64,000 nt of DNA from NCBI RefSeq assembly GCF_004799665.1, contig NZ_CP031310.1, positions 2,286,887 through 2,350,886 on the forward strand. The letters are read 5' to 3'. Both the position numbers and the translations under genes were made by a program. Source of the stretch: Halapricum salinum. GTDB taxonomy: Archaea > Halobacteriota > Halobacteria > Halobacteriales > Haloarculaceae. Under the pieces are notes generated by a model, which worked only from the letters and a program-made list of their open reading frames with translations, was not told the DNA's origin and made no database searches. Positions 16,632 to 23,400 of this stretch are shown one piece after another. How positions within the stretch are numbered: position 1 is the first letter of the stretch; every line of letters starts with the position of its first letter.

Positions 16632-16838
16632 ATGGCTCGGCTTCTCTCGTCGGTTCGGGGTTGTTTCTGGTTCAGACAGCCCGGGAACGCCCTCGACTCG
16701 CTGGCTAGGAACCGGAGACTTTCCCGTGAACACCAACGCAGGAAAGCCCTCGACTCGCTGACGGTCTCTCTGCCGGATATCCTCACTTCGTTCAGATAGG
16801 GCCGACAGAGCGCCCGCGAGCGTGGTGAGGGCGTTCCC
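16632..16838. repeat. Small direct and inverted repeats in the cdc48-radical SAM gap
   Basis: The 432-base gap 16530-16961 has no convincing gene. It contains a 14-base direct repeat CCCTCGACTCGCTG (16690-16703 and 16747-16760) and a 12-base inverted repeat GGGAACGCCCTC / GAGGGCGTTCCC (16683-16694 and 16827-16838). A 55-codon frame from 16632 to 16799 spans the direct repeats and would encode NALDSLARNRRLSRE and a diverged copy KALDSLTVSLPD; it is basic, unlike most proteins here, and may be spurious. The block could be a remnant of a mobile element. Confidence 0.4.
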
Positions 16839-16961
16839 GAGTCGTTGTTCACGGTACTGCCTCCGAGTCCAAGCAAGAGTAGTGCGAACGATCCACAGAG
16901 ATGTCGAGAACACTTTCGCACGACTTTTGAGGCTGCCCCCGATAACAAGGGTAACTAACCG

Positions 16962-17957
16962 ATGATCTCCAAGGGCTGCGAACAGTGTGCCAACGGCGGC
17001 AAGATGGTCATCTTCGTCTACGGCTACTGTGACCAGCGGGACTGTTTCTACTGTCCCCTCGGAGAGAACCGCAAGAACGTCACCGACGTCTACGCCAACG
17101 AGCGCAAGGTCGAGGAAGACCAGGACATCATCGAGGAAGCAAAGCGGATGGACGCCCTCGGCTCCTCGATCACCGGCGGCGAACCCCAGGAAGTGATGGA
17201 CCGCACCTGCCGGTACCTCTCCCTCCTCAAAGAGGAGTTCGGCGAGGATCACCACACCCACCTCTACACCGGGATCACGGGCGGCCGCGAGAACATGCGC
17301 CGCCTCGCCGAAGCAGGGCTGGACGAGATCCGCTTCCACCCACCCTACGAGCAGTGGGGCGATCTGCATGGAACCGAGTGGGAAGAGATCCTCTACATCG
17401 CTCGCGAGGAAGGTCTGACCCCGGCGTTCGAGATCCCGGGCATCCGCCCCGAGACGGAGTTCCTCGACTTCCTGGACGAGGGCGCGGCGGACTTCTGTAA
17501 CATCAACGAGTTCGAGATGTCCGACGGCAACTACCGCCGGATGCAGGAGGAGGGCTTCGAACTCCGCGAGGGGCACATGAGCGCCGTCGACGGCGACCGC
17601 GAGGAAATCCTCGACGTGATGGGCGACCACGAGAAAGTCTACTTCTGTACGAGCGTCTTCAAGGATGCCGCCCAGCACCGCCGTCGCCTCAAGCGGATGG
17701 CCCGCAACGTCCGTCGCCCCTTCGACGAGATCACCGACGACGGGACCATCGTCTACGGCAAGACCACCGCCGAACCCGAACTGTTCGAGGAGCTGGACGT
17801 GCCCGGGGAGTTCTACACAGTGAAATCGAATCACGTCGAGGTGGCTTGGTGGCTCCTCGAAGAGATGGTCGAAGAGGGTGATCTGGAACGCGGGGAGATC
17901 GTCGAGCAGTACCCGACCGTGGAAGGGACAGTTGTAGAGCGGACGCCGGTGGCATAA
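16962..17957 (+). CDS. Radical SAM protein
   Basis: This 331-residue protein has a radical SAM cluster motif in YGYCDQRDCFYCPLG (C-x4-C-x2-C spacing, slightly wider than the canonical C-x3-C-x2-C) and the GGEP motif in SSITGGEPQEV. Further features are FHPPYEQW and a C-terminal hydrophobic/acidic region. The first Cys pair (CEQCANGGKM) near the N-terminus could bind metal or be part of the fold. The reaction is unknown. Its last 17 codons and the downstream terminator reappear as a diverged copy at 18094-18206. Confidence 0.85.
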   Translation: MISKGCEQCANGGKMVIFVYGYCDQRDCFYCPLGENRKNVTDVYANERKVEEDQDIIEEAKRMDALGSSITGGEPQEVMDRTCRYLSLLKEEFGEDHHTHLYTGITGGRENMRRLAEAGLDEIRFHPPYEQWGDLHGTEWEEILYIAREEGLTPAFEIPGIRPETEFLDFLDEGAADFCNINEFEMSDGNYRRMQEEGFELREGHMSAVDGDREEILDVMGDHEKVYFCTSVFKDAAQHRRRLKRMARNVRRPFDEITDDGTIVYGKTTAEPELFEELDVPGEFYTVKSNHVEVAWWLLEEMVEEGDLERGEIVEQYPTVEGTVVERTPVA

Positions 17958-17985
17958 CGTACGGCGAACGAAGTGAGCCGTTTCA

Positions 17986-18016
17986 CCGGACCGAGCGGAG
18001 CGAGGTCCGGCTTTTT
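17986..18016 (+). terminator. Hairpin and T-tract terminator after the radical SAM gene
   Basis: A 7-bp stem CCGGACC / GGTCCGG with an 11-base loop is followed by CTTTTTCCCC and, a little later, another T5. T-rich tracts terminate archaeal RNA polymerase, and the hairpin is conserved in the second copy with a changed stem. Confidence 0.65.
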
Positions 18017-18093
18017 CCCCACGTTTTTGCCGCGAGTGGTACCCGCAGGGCCGGCGGCCCGAGGATACCCGAAGCGGGAAAAAGTGGTTGCAG

Positions 18094-18143
18094 CAGTATC
18101 CGACGGTCGAGGGAACGGTCGTTGAGCGGACGCCGGTGGCATA
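18094..18143 (+). pseudogene. Second, diverged copy of the radical SAM gene 3' end
   Basis: The frame ending at TAA 18143 encodes QYPTVEGTVVERTPVA, the same residues as the true gene end at 17957. The DNA differs at eight third-codon positions in 17 codons with no amino-acid change, and is then identical for about 50 bases through the stop into the terminator region. No upstream part of the gene is present. This looks like a fragment of a homologous gene from a relative, left by recombination or insertion, not a simple decayed tandem duplication. Confidence 0.75.
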
Positions 18144-18172
18144 ACGTACGGCGAACGAAGTGAGCCGTTTCA

Positions 18173-18206
18173 CCGGACGCGACCGTCGGGAGCGTCCGGC
18201 CTTTTT
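18173..18206 (+). terminator. Second copy of the hairpin and T-tract terminator
   Basis: An 8-bp stem CCGGACGC / GCGTCCGG is followed by CCTTTTTCCCC. The stem differs from the first copy at paired positions while the T-tract is the same, supporting selection for the structure. It would isolate the downstream heliorhodopsin gene from read-through. Confidence 0.65.
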
Positions 18207-18352
18207 CCCCACGTTTTTGCGAGGAGTGGCTCGCGAAGCGCTTCTGGGAGTCTCATCTGGATCATTTGCCGGTCCCGTGGTCGCTGTATGCCTGTTTACT
18301 TGTGCAACAGGGTACCAAACTATGATATCAAATGCCTGTGAAGAGATATCTC

Positions 18353-19126
18353 ATGGGAAAGACAAATCCTGACGACTGGAACCTGCGGCGTTTCAACGCG
18401 GTCATGGGCGCGTTACACTTCGTCCAGGGTGCGTTGATGCTCTACTTGAGCTCGTCGCGGGAGTGGACGATCACCGCGACGCGTCTCGAGTTCGATACTG
18501 AGAGTCAGCAACTCGAACCCGTCATGGAGTCGATCGGGACGATCGAGTTGGCCTATCTGGCGGTTGCGTTCCTGTTCATCTCGGCAATCGCCCACGCGCT
18601 GATCGCGACGGTTCTGTACGACCGTTACGTCGCCTACCTCGAGGAGGGCATGAACCCCTACCGGTGGTACGAGTACGCGGTCAGTGCGTCGGTGATGATC
18701 GTCCTGATCGCCATGCTCGCGGGCGTCTGGGATCTCGGCACGCTGATCGCGCTGTTCGGTCTCGTCGCAGTGATGAACCTCTGTGGACTCGTGATGGAAC
18801 GGCACAATCGGCTGACCGAGAAAACGGACTGGAGTTCGTTCGTCGTCGGTTCGATCGCCGGCGTCGTCCCCTGGATCGTGATCGCGGTTACGATCGTCCG
18901 CACGTTCAACGCTGGCGGGAGCCCGCCGGACTTTGTGATCGTGATTTACGTCTCGCTGTTCGTCCTGTTCAACCTCTTTGCGATCAATATGTGGCTGCAG
19001 TATCGCGGCGTCTGGAAGTGGCAGGACTACCTGTACGGTGAACGGGCGTACATCGTGCTGAGCCTCGTGGCCAAGTCGCTATTGGCCTGGCAAGTCTACT
19101 TCGGCGCGGTGAACTCGCCAGTGTAG
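18353..19126 (+). CDS. Heliorhodopsin
   Basis: This 257-residue seven-helix membrane protein has the heliorhodopsin signatures: WYEYAVSASVMIVLIA in helix 3 and GERAYIVLSLVAKSLLAWQV in helix 7. With the ATG at 18353 the retinal Schiff-base Lys is residue 241 and the helix-3 Glu is residue 107, the same numbers as K241 and E107 of HeR-48C12, which supports this start over 18332. Heliorhodopsins bind retinal and insert with the N-terminus inside, opposite to type I rhodopsins; the function is light sensing or regulation of partner proteins and is not settled. No retinal synthesis gene is in the window. The 121 bases upstream are more AT-rich than the surroundings. Confidence 0.93.
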   Translation: MGKTNPDDWNLRRFNAVMGALHFVQGALMLYLSSSREWTITATRLEFDTESQQLEPVMESIGTIELAYLAVAFLFISAIAHALIATVLYDRYVAYLEEGMNPYRWYEYAVSASVMIVLIAMLAGVWDLGTLIALFGLVAVMNLCGLVMERHNRLTEKTDWSSFVVGSIAGVVPWIVIAVTIVRTFNAGGSPPDFVIVIYVSLFVLFNLFAINMWLQYRGVWKWQDYLYGERAYIVLSLVAKSLLAWQVYFGAVNSPV

Positions 19127-19164: not shown

Positions 19165-20250
19165 TCAAAGCGACACCACGAACCACTCCTCGTCCGGACG
19201 TCGCTGTACTTCCGTCCGGAACTGCGCTGACCGCGACCGAACCCGCTCGCGCAACCACTCACGACCGCGCTCGCCCGCAGGTCGCACCGACTTCTCGACT
19301 ACTTCGACCGGATGCAGCCGCAGCTCCGATAGTCCGTCGTCGACTACCACCTCGAACAGGAACGTCAGGTCGTTGCGGTGGCCCTCGACGGCGGTGAAGT
19401 CAGAGACGAACGTCCCCGTATCGTACAGGATCGGCCGCTCCTCGTACACTTCGATGCCGGCGATCTCGTGGGCGCTGTGGCCGTGGACGACGTCGACGCC
19501 GCGGTCGATGAGCCACCGGCCGAACCGGCGGTGGCGGTCGGTCTTGGGTTCGTAGTTTGGGCCCCAGTGCAGCGACGCCACGACGAGGTCCACGGTCTGA
19601 GGAATCTGCGAGAGGCTACGCTCGACACGGTGGCGGGTTGCCGGATCGCGCGGATCCATGTTCAGGTACGACGTCCCGGCGCTGTCCGGTCCCGCAGCGA
19701 ATGGGCGGAATCGGTCGGTGTAACTCACCAGTGCGACGGTCAGGCCCCCGGCCTCGAACGTCCTCGGCGCGAACGCGGCCGCTTGGTCCTCACTTGCTCC
19801 GGCATGGGCAATTCCCGCGGCGTCGAGAGCACCCGTCGTGTCTCGTACCGAGACGGGCCCGTAGTCCATCACGTGGTTGTTGGCCAGACTGACGGCCCCG
19901 ACGTTGCCGGTCTTCAGGACGGTCGTCGCCCAGTCCGGGTCGCCACGGAAGCGCCACTGCTTGTCCGGCCAGGGCTCGCCTCGCGTGGTGAGCGTACATT
20001 CGAGGTTGCCGACGACGGTGTCGAGCGCGTCGAGCCGCCCCTGCACCTCGTCCCACACTGCGGCTGGCGTCGACCGATGTTTCTCCTGGACGTACCGGGC
20101 CAGCAGGAGGTCGCCGACGAACCCAATCTGGGCCGTCCCATCGACGCTGTGGCCGAGTTCGAACTGGCTGTCCGGTCGTGCGCTCAGCATCGAACACCCT
20201 CCGAGTGCGACCGCACCGGAGGTCAGTACCGCTCGGCGACTACGCCGCAT
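19165..20250 (-). CDS. CapA/PgsA-like metallophosphoesterase-fold lipoprotein
   Basis: This 361-residue protein begins MRRSRRAVLTSGAVALGGC: twin arginines and a lipobox, so it is probably Tat-exported and lipid-anchored. The mature domain has the CapA/PgsA features: IGFVGDLLLARYV, VGNLECTLT, AVSLANNHVMDYG, VASLHWGPNYEP and HGHSAHEIAGIEVY, the metal-binding Asp/Asn/His set of the calcineurin-like CapA fold. Relatives take part in poly-gamma-glutamate capsule formation, though many are of unknown role. The upstream TrmB gene is on the same strand, 38 bases away, and may co-regulate it. The long upstream frame to 21066 is a shadow of the TrmB gene. Confidence 0.85.
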   Translation of the reverse strand: MRRSRRAVLTSGAVALGGCSMLSARPDSQFELGHSVDGTAQIGFVGDLLLARYVQEKHRSTPAAVWDEVQGRLDALDTVVGNLECTLTTRGEPWPDKQWRFRGDPDWATTVLKTGNVGAVSLANNHVMDYGPVSVRDTTGALDAAGIAHAGASEDQAAAFAPRTFEAGGLTVALVSYTDRFRPFAAGPDSAGTSYLNMDPRDPATRHRVERSLSQIPQTVDLVVASLHWGPNYEPKTDRHRRFGRWLIDRGVDVVHGHSAHEIAGIEVYEERPILYDTGTFVSDFTAVEGHRNDLTFLFEVVVDDGLSELRLHPVEVVEKSVRPAGERGREWLRERVRSRSAQFRTEVQRRPDEEWFVVSL

Positions 20251-20288: not shown

Positions 20289-21443
20289 TCAGTCCTCTGC
20301 TTCGACTAACTCGACCGTGAAGCGCTCGCCTTCGACGTCTTCCATGTACGAGCCCCAGCCGCCGATCGTGTAGGTTTCGTCGTCGACGTCGAGCCAGATG
20401 GTCGCCTGGTGGACGAACGACGCAAGCGGCGGCGCGTCGACCTCGAAGTCGTACTCCGCGGAGACGAGGTTCGAGATCCCGCCGGTCAGTTCGACCGACT
20501 CCCCGGATTCGGTGTCGACGCCCTCGACGGTGAGCACGACGCGCGCGCCGTCTCGGACGAGTGGGGTGACGTGATGGAGACACTCCCGGATGTTCGAGTA
20601 GGTGGCCGGAAGCCCTTCCGACCGAGTCGAGTAGACGGTCTCCCAGGTGTTCCACAGCGCGGTCTGGAAGAACCAGTAGAACACCCGCGACAGCGAGGCG
20701 TCGTTGACGAGCACGCCGTAGCGGCTCGAATCCGGGAGCGTCGACTCGGGGGCGAACGCGGCGTGCTCGCGGTCGACGACGGCCAGAAACTGCGTCTCCA
20801 TGTCGCGATAGCGGACCTCGGTGACACACCCCTCGAACTGCTCGCGGACGTCCGCGAACGGCCGGTCGGTGTCGGATTCGGCACCGCCGGGCTCGCCCAT
20901 CTCGGGATCGAGGTCGCTCGCCGGCGGGATCGCGTCGTCCTCTCTGGTGAGTGTGAGTTTGACGACGACCCCCCGGTCGAAGGCCGCACAGATCGCGTCT
21001 CGCAGGCGCTCGAACTGTGCGGGCGTCGCGCTGACCTCGACCTCGTGTTCGGCCGACTCGATCCACTCGCGAGCCTGCCTGAGCACGGTCTGGGGCTGAG
21101 AGACGACGCTGATGGTGGCGTGGGTGACGTCGGGTTGGCTCCAGCGCTGGTCGATCTCCTCGGCGGCGTCGAGGAAGGTGTCGGCGTAGCTCTCCAGATC
21201 TTCGATCACTGTCTCGGGGTCGTTTGCCCGGACCTGGAGGCTGCCTTCCTGGTAGGTCTCGGCGTAACCACGGTCGGCGAGGCTACGGACGACATCGTAG
21301 ATTCGCGTCTGCGGGACGTCCGAGGCCTCGGCGAGCTCCGAGGCCGTCGCCGTACCGTGTTCGAGCAGCGCGACGTAGGCGTCGGCCTCGTACTGGGTGA
21401 CGCCGGCGTTTTCGAGCGCTGTGCGGAGCCGCTCGGTATCCAT
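20289..21443 (-). CDS. TrmB-family transcription regulator
   Basis: This 384-residue protein has the N-terminal TrmB winged helix (LENAGVTQYEADAYVALLEHG and ASDVPQTRIYDVVRSLADRGY), a linker helix, a PLD-like middle region and a C-terminal TrmB sugar-binding domain ending near the segment WLDVDDETYTIGGWGSYMED. It is the long TrmB form. An ATG at 21455 would add four residues. It is followed by the CapA-like gene, so they may be an operon. The effector is likely a sugar or related ligand, by family analogy only. Confidence 0.87.
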   Translation of the reverse strand: MDTERLRTALENAGVTQYEADAYVALLEHGTATASELAEASDVPQTRIYDVVRSLADRGYAETYQEGSLQVRANDPETVIEDLESYADTFLDAAEEIDQRWSQPDVTHATISVVSQPQTVLRQAREWIESAEHEVEVSATPAQFERLRDAICAAFDRGVVVKLTLTREDDAIPPASDLDPEMGEPGGAESDTDRPFADVREQFEGCVTEVRYRDMETQFLAVVDREHAAFAPESTLPDSSRYGVLVNDASLSRVFYWFFQTALWNTWETVYSTRSEGLPATYSNIRECLHHVTPLVRDGARVVLTVEGVDTESGESVELTGGISNLVSAEYDFEVDAPPLASFVHQATIWLDVDDETYTIGGWGSYMEDVEGERFTVELVEAED

Positions 21444-21502
21444 ACGCCCATCCAATCCGGTCGATCACCCTAATCGTTGCGGTCTTCCGTCACCACTATT
21501 CT

Positions 21503-22021
21503 TCACCGACAGACCCGTTCGAGGGCACTGGCGAGTGTGTGCGGATCCGTGGACGTGATAACGATCTCCCGTCCCCCGGCCCGTTCGATCCTGACTGCTC
21601 GTTTGCCCGCGACGATGTAGCCGATCGGCCCGTCGAAGCGGATCCCCCACCGGTACAGCGTCGGATTGAGTCGGATTCCGACACCGCCGAACTCACCCAT
21701 CGGCGAGATCTCAGTCGGTCGAACCGATTCGATCTCCTCGCAGGGGATCGTCCGCGCTCGCAGGTGCAGCGGCCACAGCCGCAGGGCGAGGCCGTCGTCT
21801 CTGACTTCTACTCGGAGGTTCGCGTAATAGAACAGGACCAGCGGCGAGAACACCAGGAACAAAATGACGCCGATCACCAGTGGGACGTTCGTTCCGGGAT
21901 CGCTGTCGACGGCGACGGCGACGCTGGCGAGCAGCGCGGCGGGGACGCTCCCGACGAGTAGCAGGGCCCACAGCCAGTCCTGGCGGAAGTACTGGCGCTC
22001 GCTGTAGTGGACGGTCGACAC
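21503..22021 (-). CDS. Membrane protein with PH-like domain
   Basis: This 172-residue protein starts with GTG. Two transmembrane helices (about residues 18-38 and 48-66) are followed by a soluble region of alternating strands (VEVRDDGLALRLWPLHLRAR ... YIVAGKRAVRIERAGGREIV) ending with HTLASALERVC, which has the form of a bacterial PH-like (bPH) domain. It would be anchored in the membrane with the domain in the cytoplasm. The role is unknown. The 73 bases between it and the next gene hold both divergent promoters. Confidence 0.7.
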   Translation of the reverse strand: MSTVHYSERQYFRQDWLWALLLVGSVPAALLASVAVAVDSDPGTNVPLVIGVILFLVFSPLVLFYYANLRVEVRDDGLALRLWPLHLRARTIPCEEIESVRPTEISPMGEFGGVGIRLNPTLYRWGIRFDGPIGYIVAGKRAVRIERAGGREIVITSTDPHTLASALERVCR

Positions 22022-22094
22022 ACCTGTTCATTTACTGGCAGCTACCCCAAGTGTTTCGATACGTTTTGGTGTCGAGCGCACCTCCTCTCGATCG

Positions 22095-22397
22095 ATGTAC
22101 GTCTCGCCTGCAGTCCGTACGATCGCCGACGATCCACTCGAAGACGAATCTGTCACCTTGCTCGTCGAGGTCGACGACGACTACGAGCCGGGCGTCGATT
22201 CGGTCGCCAAGCGGGTCGAGACACTCGGCGGGAGCGTCGAGGATCGACGCCGGTTCGGGACATTGGTCGTCTCGATCTCGCAGACGGCTGTGGGCGAACT
22301 CTGCGAACTGGATGGACTGGCGGTTGTCGAGACCGACAACGCGGTGACGATCGATCCCGACGGCGCGGGCGAGGACGTCGAGTACGACATCGAGTGA
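22095..22397 (+). CDS. Conserved-looking 100-residue protein, unknown
   Basis: The product is acidic, with an alternating strand/helix pattern: SVTLLVEVDDDY, a helix with VAKRVETLGG, RFGTLVVSISQTAVGELCEL and DGLAVVETDN. This beta-alpha-beta-beta-alpha-beta order is like a subtilisin propeptide / I9 inhibitor-like ferredoxin fold, but that is only a topology resemblance. No protease neighbour is present. Codon use is normal and it has its own upstream region. Confidence 0.6.
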   Translation: MYVSPAVRTIADDPLEDESVTLLVEVDDDYEPGVDSVAKRVETLGGSVEDRRRFGTLVVSISQTAVGELCELDGLAVVETDNAVTIDPDGAGEDVEYDIE

Positions 22398-22488
22398 TCG
22401 ATTTTCGGCCGTGTGGCCGGTCACCATTCCGATCGGGGCGTTGCGAACCCGCAAGCGTTTACTTCCGTGCCGAGTAATTCGAACTACG

Positions 22489-22932
22489 ATGCCGGACTGC
22501 CCACTCGCCGACGATTGCCCCGAATTCACCGAGCGTATCTCCGGGATGGGGTGTCAACACTACGGCGACCGCGGGGGAGCTGAGTGGTGCAACCACTACA
22601 ACCAGCCGATCAAGGAACTCAAAGCCCAGCCCGTCAAGATGGGCGAAGAGGTCGTCGTCGACGTCGAGGACATCCACGAGAGCGGCGCGGGCGTCGGCCG
22701 AACCGACGACGGGTTCATCGTGCTCGTCGACGGCGTCCTCCCGGAGGCACGCGCTCGAGTCAAGATCACGAACGTCCACTCGAACCACGCCAAAGCCGAG
22801 GAGGTCGAGCGACTCGAGATGGCCGAGACGACCTCCGAAGAGACCGTCGAGGACGAGCGCGACGCCGCGGACGAGGACGAAGACGACCGCGGACCACGGC
22901 TGGGCAGCCGGGACAACTTCTGGGGCAGCTAG
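22489..22932 (+). CDS. TRAM-domain protein with N-terminal Cys motif
   Basis: This 147-residue protein starts MPDCPLADDCPEFTERISGM (ATG at 22489; the frame is open to 22411). The N-terminus carries several Cys and His (CPLADDC, MGCQHYG, EWCNHY) that may bind zinc or a cluster. The TRAM domain follows (GEEVVVDVEDIHESGAGVGR and VDGVLPEARARVKITNV), a predicted RNA-binding barrel. The tail is highly acidic (about 35 residues, mostly Glu and Asp). TRAM proteins in archaea act as RNA-binding or chaperone-like factors. It is followed six bases later by the Tfx gene. Confidence 0.85.
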   Translation: MPDCPLADDCPEFTERISGMGCQHYGDRGGAEWCNHYNQPIKELKAQPVKMGEEVVVDVEDIHESGAGVGRTDDGFIVLVDGVLPEARARVKITNVHSNHAKAEEVERLEMAETTSEETVEDERDAADEDEDDRGPRLGSRDNFWGS

Positions 22933-22938
22933 TCGACC

Positions 22939-23400
22939 GTGACTGACGCCGATTCGATCCTCGAACAGGCGGGATTCGATTCCGAGGCGTCGATTCTGAC
23001 GCGTCGGCAGGCCGAAGTGCTGGCGCTTCGCGAGCGCGGGCTCACCCAGTCGGCCATCGCCGAGCAGTTCGGAACCTCACGAGCCAACGTCGCGAGTATC
23101 GAGTCCAGCGCCCGTGAGAACGTCCGGAAAGCTCGCGAGACCATCGCCGTCGCCGAGACGCTTCGGGCCCCGGTCCAGATCGACGTCGAAGCCGGGACCG
23201 ATCTCTACGACGTGCCACCCGTCGTCTTCGAGGCCTGTGACGACGCCGGTGTGAAGGTGCCACACACGGCGCCGGAACTGCTGTCGACGGTGAGTGAAGC
23301 CGCCGGCGACGCGGTCGTGGGCCGCGAGATCAGGGTGGAGATTCTCGTCAGCGTCAGCGCCGACGGGACGGTCAGGGTCCGGCGAACCAGCGACGACTAG
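22939..23400 (+). CDS. Tfx family DNA-binding regulator
   Basis: This 153-residue protein starts with GTG six bases after the TRAM gene. The N-terminal helix-turn-helix reads SILTRRQAEVLALRERGLTQ followed by SAIAEQFGTSRANVASIE, like the Tfx/sigma-4-type HTH, and the C-terminal part (VFEACDDAGVKVPHTAPELL) matches the Tfx C-terminal domain. Tfx was described as an activator of the molybdenum formylmethanofuran operon in methanogens; haloarchaeal members have no confirmed target. Likely co-transcribed with the TRAM gene. Confidence 0.85.
   Translation: MTDADSILEQAGFDSEASILTRRQAEVLALRERGLTQSAIAEQFGTSRANVASIESSARENVRKARETIAVAETLRAPVQIDVEAGTDLYDVPPVVFEACDDAGVKVPHTAPELLSTVSEAAGDAVVGREIRVEILVSVSADGTVRVRRTSDD

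Follow-up and report, generated by a model that had tools for sequence, protein, structure and literature searches.

The gene described here, which lies in a 64,000-nucleotide stretch of Halapricum salinum DNA (the window), is in our reading a functional clade-A haloarchaeal heliorhodopsin (HeR), gained horizontally in place of a clade-B HeR and standing alone as a monocistronic gene that has its own leader. We give this reading a probability of about 85%. In the proposed course of events, the lineage of this species would have acquired the clade-A HeR horizontally, and the newcomer would have replaced the clade-B HeR that its congeners carry. G000 denotes the window genome and G001–G005 the other Halapricum genomes; the names of other genera are inferred, as are the assignments of g9 to Halorhabdus, g11 to Halosegnis and g12 to Halosimplex.

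Table 1 Features at and around the HeR gene (window positions)
Feature	Position	Strand	Remarks
Radical-SAM protein gene	16962..17957	+	taken as vertical marker of the site
Radical-SAM gene end and 3' region, repeat copy 1	17905..17991	+	
Repeat copy 2	18092..18178	+	non-coding copy of the radical-SAM gene end
Terminator-like repeat, copy 1	18011..18051	+	motif CTTTTTCCCCACGTTTTTG
Terminator-like repeat, copy 2	18201..18241	+	
Leader common to clade-A relatives	18315..18352	+	CAAA...TGAT...CTGTGAAG; alignment to several relatives starts about here
HeR gene	18353..19126	+	257 aa; E107 (TM3 counterion), S111, L118, S237, K241 (retinal lysine)
Colour-tuning positions of the window HeR			M148, M213, A240
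CapA-type protein gene (capA, PF09587)	19165..20250	-	convergent with HeR; missing at the G003 site
TrmB-type regulator gene	20289..21455	-	missing at the G003 site
Right-flank genes (21503-22021, 22095-22397, TRAM, Tfx)	21503..23400	.	kept next to radical SAM in G003, where HeR is missing

The HeR reading frame is open throughout. Its product scored 335.4 bits (2.3e-100) against the Pfam family PF18761 (Heliorhodopsin; curated cut-off 26.7), the sole Pfam family reported, and the type-1 rhodopsin profile PF01036 (Bac_rhodopsin) gave no match. Six distinct PDB sequences matched the protein, every one named heliorhodopsin. An in-frame ATG at 18332 would lengthen the product by seven amino acids; all 11 clade-A HeRs aligned have the ATG at 18353, and an equivalent of the upstream ATG was not found in any other clade-A relative of that alignment. 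The conserved segment before the start is a putative promoter and leader, in which GTGA would be the ribosome-binding site. Numbered from 18353, E107 and K241 equal those of 48C12 (PDB 6su3), and all 43 HeRs aligned have both. According to the available part of PMC9601134, heliorhodopsins are marked by a TM3 Glu counterion, a TM7 Lys and the motifs E..S..L and SxxxK. Both motifs are present in the window protein, the letters of the first having been placed at 107/111/118 by our own analysis. The stretch GERAYIVLSLVAK is identical to that of 48C12, letter for letter; family-wide, the invariant positions of this region are G229, E230, Y233, L236, S237, A240 and K241, and the letters between them vary.

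An AlphaFold2 model (mean pLDDT 91.3; input alignment of 43 window and locus sequences) predicts a seven-helix fold with a beta-type first loop, its strands at residues 38-48 and 53-64. When the model was compared with the PDB by Foldseek, ranks 1–10 were all HeRs and the next match stood at 9.8e-04. The gene is single-copy in G000 and under purifying selection, with a dN/dS of about 0.13 against G091 (dN about one eighth of dS). Judged by its sequence, it is an intact, normal heliorhodopsin. The earlier note on this DNA had named it a heliorhodopsin, and the Pfam family, the conserved residues and a model closest to PDB 6is6 all agree; its numbering of Glu107 and Lys241 as in HeR-48C12 is likewise borne out by the alignment. 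Its description of the helix-7 stretch as nearly invariant does not hold across the family, where seven positions are invariant.

One HeR is present in each of the six Halapricum genomes. Matches were found in 27 of 146 genomes of the family and, in a survey of the order, in 41 of 392 genomes and 21 of 95 genera, counts that take in partial matches (e.g. G099) as well as G061, whose gene is interrupted. The five other Halapricum HeRs are 60–62% identical to that of the window. Its closest relatives (88–92%) sit in other genera and span three families, two besides the window's own: G392 (92%, family f7), G305 (91%, Natrinema mahii by sequence), G091 (91%), G093 (90%), G246 (88%, family f12) and G083 (88%). 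For these family statements L211 (G305) and L049, by sequence the same Natrinema locus, were counted once. In the HeR tree, the window HeR falls in an 11-row clade A (support 100/99) free of any other Halapricum, and the remaining Halapricum HeRs fall in a 17-row clade B (100/100). Forcing the six into one clade costs 279 log units and is rejected (p-AU 4.48e-55). Both analyses were built on chosen rows, 45 in the tree and 42 in the AU test, a subset of the HeRs found; the L051 row contained a stop and the G061 row was assembled from two pieces. A phylogeny was among the checks the earlier note had proposed, and it conflicts with the radical-SAM tree, a single-gene tree of modest support in which the six Halapricum stand together (89/90). 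Radical-SAM identity is 89–95% within Halapricum and 81–87% outside it among the genera compared (G045, 56%, excluded).

A version of the site without HeR is found in G003, a 78%-complete draft. Here an Antibiotic_NAT gene lies between the radical-SAM gene (95%) and the window's four right-hand genes, and HeR, capA and TrmB were not found between the matching flanks. The Antibiotic_NAT gene (aminoglycoside acetyltransferase family; L162:1789-2531) is apparently frameshifted and lies in two frames. G083 and G141 also have TRAM near radical SAM without HeR. The G003 site could instead have lost HeR. Because the site differs in capA and TrmB too, the boundary of the HeR insertion is imprecise, and the absence of all three genes between the same flanks would fit their joint arrival in one 3.4-kb island. 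We consider such an island unlikely, as the best capA relative (78%) sits at another place in the congener G002, no capA match other than the window's own was found among the loci scanned for it, and the best TrmB relative reaches 45%.

Evidence on HeR as a unit of one gene comes from its surroundings in other genomes. Six Halapricum genomes yield six HeR contexts, and the same spot was never found twice in the genus. In 8-kb flanks, 2 of 15 HeR-locus pairs, which are not independent of each other, have at least 500 bases in common, namely G001/G005 and window–G002. The common flank of the latter (518 bases) was rejected as synteny, since it is a histidine-kinase paralogue at window 9151. In the same genomes, the control flanks were shared in 15/15 pairs for the rhodopsin with BCD, 15/15 for rhodopsin_a (10/10 without L203, whose gene did not align), 7/15 for radical SAM and just 6/15 for rhodopsin_c (6/10 without L209, a more distant copy); for L162, L195, L198 and L209 the stretch is shorter or cut off by a contig end. 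Rhodopsin_c is a type-1 rhodopsin gene left of the window (G000:C1:2285534-2286244), about 19 kb from HeR.

G001 and G005 share a collinear block of 83,297 aligned bases, in which their HeR genes are separated by about 12 kb and point in opposite directions. At the position of the G001 gene (2374840-2375604, minus strand), the flanks in G005 are separated by about 30 bases; at the position of the G005 gene (400884-401639, plus strand), G001 lacks HeR and has about 260 bases. The displaced unit of 853 bases is inverted, is 92.5% identical like its surroundings and terminates at the stop codon. Apart from an edge stretch of 210 bases, it is the sole displaced segment of at least 120 bases at 85% identity in the block. 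The pair shows, at the level of single bases, an archaeal gene that has switched place and strand. Two Halosimplex genomes have HeR in common and nothing else over about 17 kb, and in most clade-A pairs the DNA likeness begins at the leader or within the start of the gene and ends shortly after the stop. Such wandering is not general, because Halorhabdus keeps a fixed neighbour: HeR stands next to a glycosyltransferase gene in 5/5 genomes, and the pairs examined are collinear. In the synteny check that the earlier note had suggested, identical neighbours across the family were looked for and found only within Halorhabdus. The HeR gene of G061 is interrupted by an insertion sequence (L121:7612-8679) that contains a 332-aa open frame and has TCGAGCAG at both ends, so HeR is probably dispensable there.

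We put forward, tentatively, that in part of the haloarchaea HeR may be a nomadic single-gene unit with its leader, one that moves within genomes and between families and swaps HeR clades, and that would hence act independently of a linked partner; short palindromic repeats are perhaps one vehicle. A phage or plasmid vehicle was rejected, as HeR had no match in 50,697 phage records and matched 2 of 72,556 plasmid records (46–48% identical; Chloroflexota and Lactococcus). It could also be that MITE-like short palindromic transposable repeats carry HeR as a composite unit. The relocated unit of G001 is bracketed by 85-nt palindromes that are 90.6% alike, one palindrome lies upstream of the gene in G002, and in Natrinema mahii one of another type comes after the stop codon. 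However, these are just 3 of 30 HeR loci, with repeats on both sides in G001 only. No copy was found in the 600 nt to either side of the window HeR. The repeat occurs at the order of 40 places in G001, so its insertion beside HeR could be chance, and no clear target duplication surrounds the G001 unit. We therefore regard carriage by such repeats as rather improbable.

Several repeats were recorded in their own right. The 85-nt palindromic repeat (e.g. L109, G001:C1:2374744-2374839) has many copies in G001 and G002 and few, weak ones in G000. An imperfect large inverted repeat (arms of 76 nt, 72%) occupies window 16701-16877, between the CDC48 and radical-SAM genes, and window 57906-57990 matches, at 91.9%, a repeat (L049:8686-8771) close to the HeR locus of Natrinema mahii. 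TnpB lies downstream of HeR in one locus (L050).

Ancient paralogy would explain the tree conflict without transfer if both clades, A and B, had been present in the haloarchaeal ancestor and one of them had been lost in each lineage. Several families do contain both clades, and G083 and G084, of the same genus, differ in clade (88% and 63% identical to the window HeR). Nevertheless, two full-length HeRs were found in none of the 392 genomes of the order survey; G096 gave a full match plus a partial one, and G061 has one gene in two pieces. Identity between the HeRs of Natrinema and the window, which come from different families, is 91%. Between the window and G091, dS is lower for HeR (0.38) than for radical SAM (0.70); the values are 0.40 and 0.56 against G093, and 0.77 and 0.81, with no clear difference, against G083, all by a rough clock, as synonymous sites are near saturation and GC-biased. 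On this evidence paralogy appears quite improbable and horizontal gain is preferred. The earlier note had suggested a recent gain at this site. The gain itself is upheld by the tree conflict, the identities, dS and the HeR-free site of G003; "recent" applies relative to species splits only (dS 0.38 to the nearest aligned relative), and the repeats on which the note based its suggestion do not bear it out.

Those repeats were described correctly, as a duplicated gene end with terminators left of HeR: the two copies of the radical-SAM gene end are 91% identical and the two terminators 80%. The motif CTTTTTCCCCACGTTTTTG has 24 sites in the G000 genome (reverse control, 0), among which three close doublets occur where 0.04 would be expected from random placing, and a perfect 132-nt tandem copy surrounds the same motif elsewhere in G000 (L234, G000:C1:1246811-1247086). 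Radical-SAM gene end and terminator stand in tandem in three of five congeners (G001, G004 and G005) with differing junctions and with HeR elsewhere, and the gene after the duplicated end in G001 encodes a small multidrug-resistance protein; G002 and G003 have one copy of the gene end. These observations suggest that tandem terminator copying is recurrent, and because doublets recur without HeR, the repeats are tied to this kind of terminator and not to HeR. That the repeated gene end, directly left of HeR as it is, is a scar of the event that delivered the gene, as the earlier note had it, is highly improbable and was rejected in view of the HeR-free tandem copies, the excess of doublets and the 132-nt copy in a genome with a single HeR.

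No evident partner stands beside the window HeR, since capA downstream is convergent. We scanned by Pfam 118 neighbour genes (60 + 58, two alignments) of the 123 called by our own composition score, some of which will be wrong calls; L109:6304-6588, L118:3173-4402, L119:9581-9985, L121:9601-13191 and L032:1149-1418 were left out, and one spurious window frame was swapped for capA. Among the first 25 families listed for each, Glycos_transf_2 was the commonest with five members; HTH_10 had three, and a type-1 rhodopsin occurred once (L036). Outside Halorhabdus, no partner family recurred beside haloarchaeal HeRs among the neighbours scanned and families listed, in keeping with the earlier view of a single gene without an obvious partner. 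A genus that keeps HeR (6/6 Halapricum) but not its neighbours speaks for a HeR that acts on its own or in trans, and Halapricum offers naturally solo HeRs in hosts with their own retinal supply. G000 carries two BCD-type carotene dioxygenase genes over the cut-off and three type-1 rhodopsins, so retinal should be available; G045 has HeR and no BCD match.

All-trans retinal would be bound at K241, with E107 as the counterion. Absorption is predicted near 536–540 nm, in green light, and the role may be photosensory rather than pumping, via a partner encoded elsewhere. Heliorhodopsins are further marked by an inverted orientation in the membrane, with the N-terminus inside, and by a slow photocycle that pumps no ions, both of which would be expected of the window protein. 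The HeR family is already known and the window protein is a further member. Our literature search, with thin coverage of subscription journals, returned nothing joining heliorhodopsin with Halapricum; titles and abstract openings reported no haloarchaeal HeR relocation, and the available part of PMC8612252 does not mention haloarchaea. Partner proteins have been proposed for HeRs from adjacent genes, as far as the available parts of the sources go: glutamine synthetase (PMC9529153), photolyase (PMC9769723) and an ABC transporter (PMC11109279). Those HeRs belong to the same family as the window HeR, but such partners are absent beside it and from the families listed as recurring near haloarchaeal HeRs.

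Among solved structures, the best match is TaHeR of a Thermoplasmatales archaeon (PDB 6is6, 7u55, 7clj; Foldseek 54% identity, TM 0.90, rmsd 1.4 A), which differs in host lineage and loop lengths. HeR 48C12 (PDB 6su3, 6su4, 6uh3) has the same E107/K241 numbering and the GERAYIVLSLVAKS stretch, but is 39% identical and has Q148 and Q213 where the window HeR has M. The letters M148, M213 and A240 are those of HeRs absorbing below 540 nm, a short-wavelength group that includes the Halorhabdus tiamatea HeR, measured at 536 nm (available part of PMC7807009); the measured protein itself lies outside our alignment. The Halorhabdus HeRs that we aligned fall in the window's 11-row clade and are 82–86% identical to the window HeR, and whereas their gene has a fixed glycosyltransferase neighbour, that of the window stands alone.
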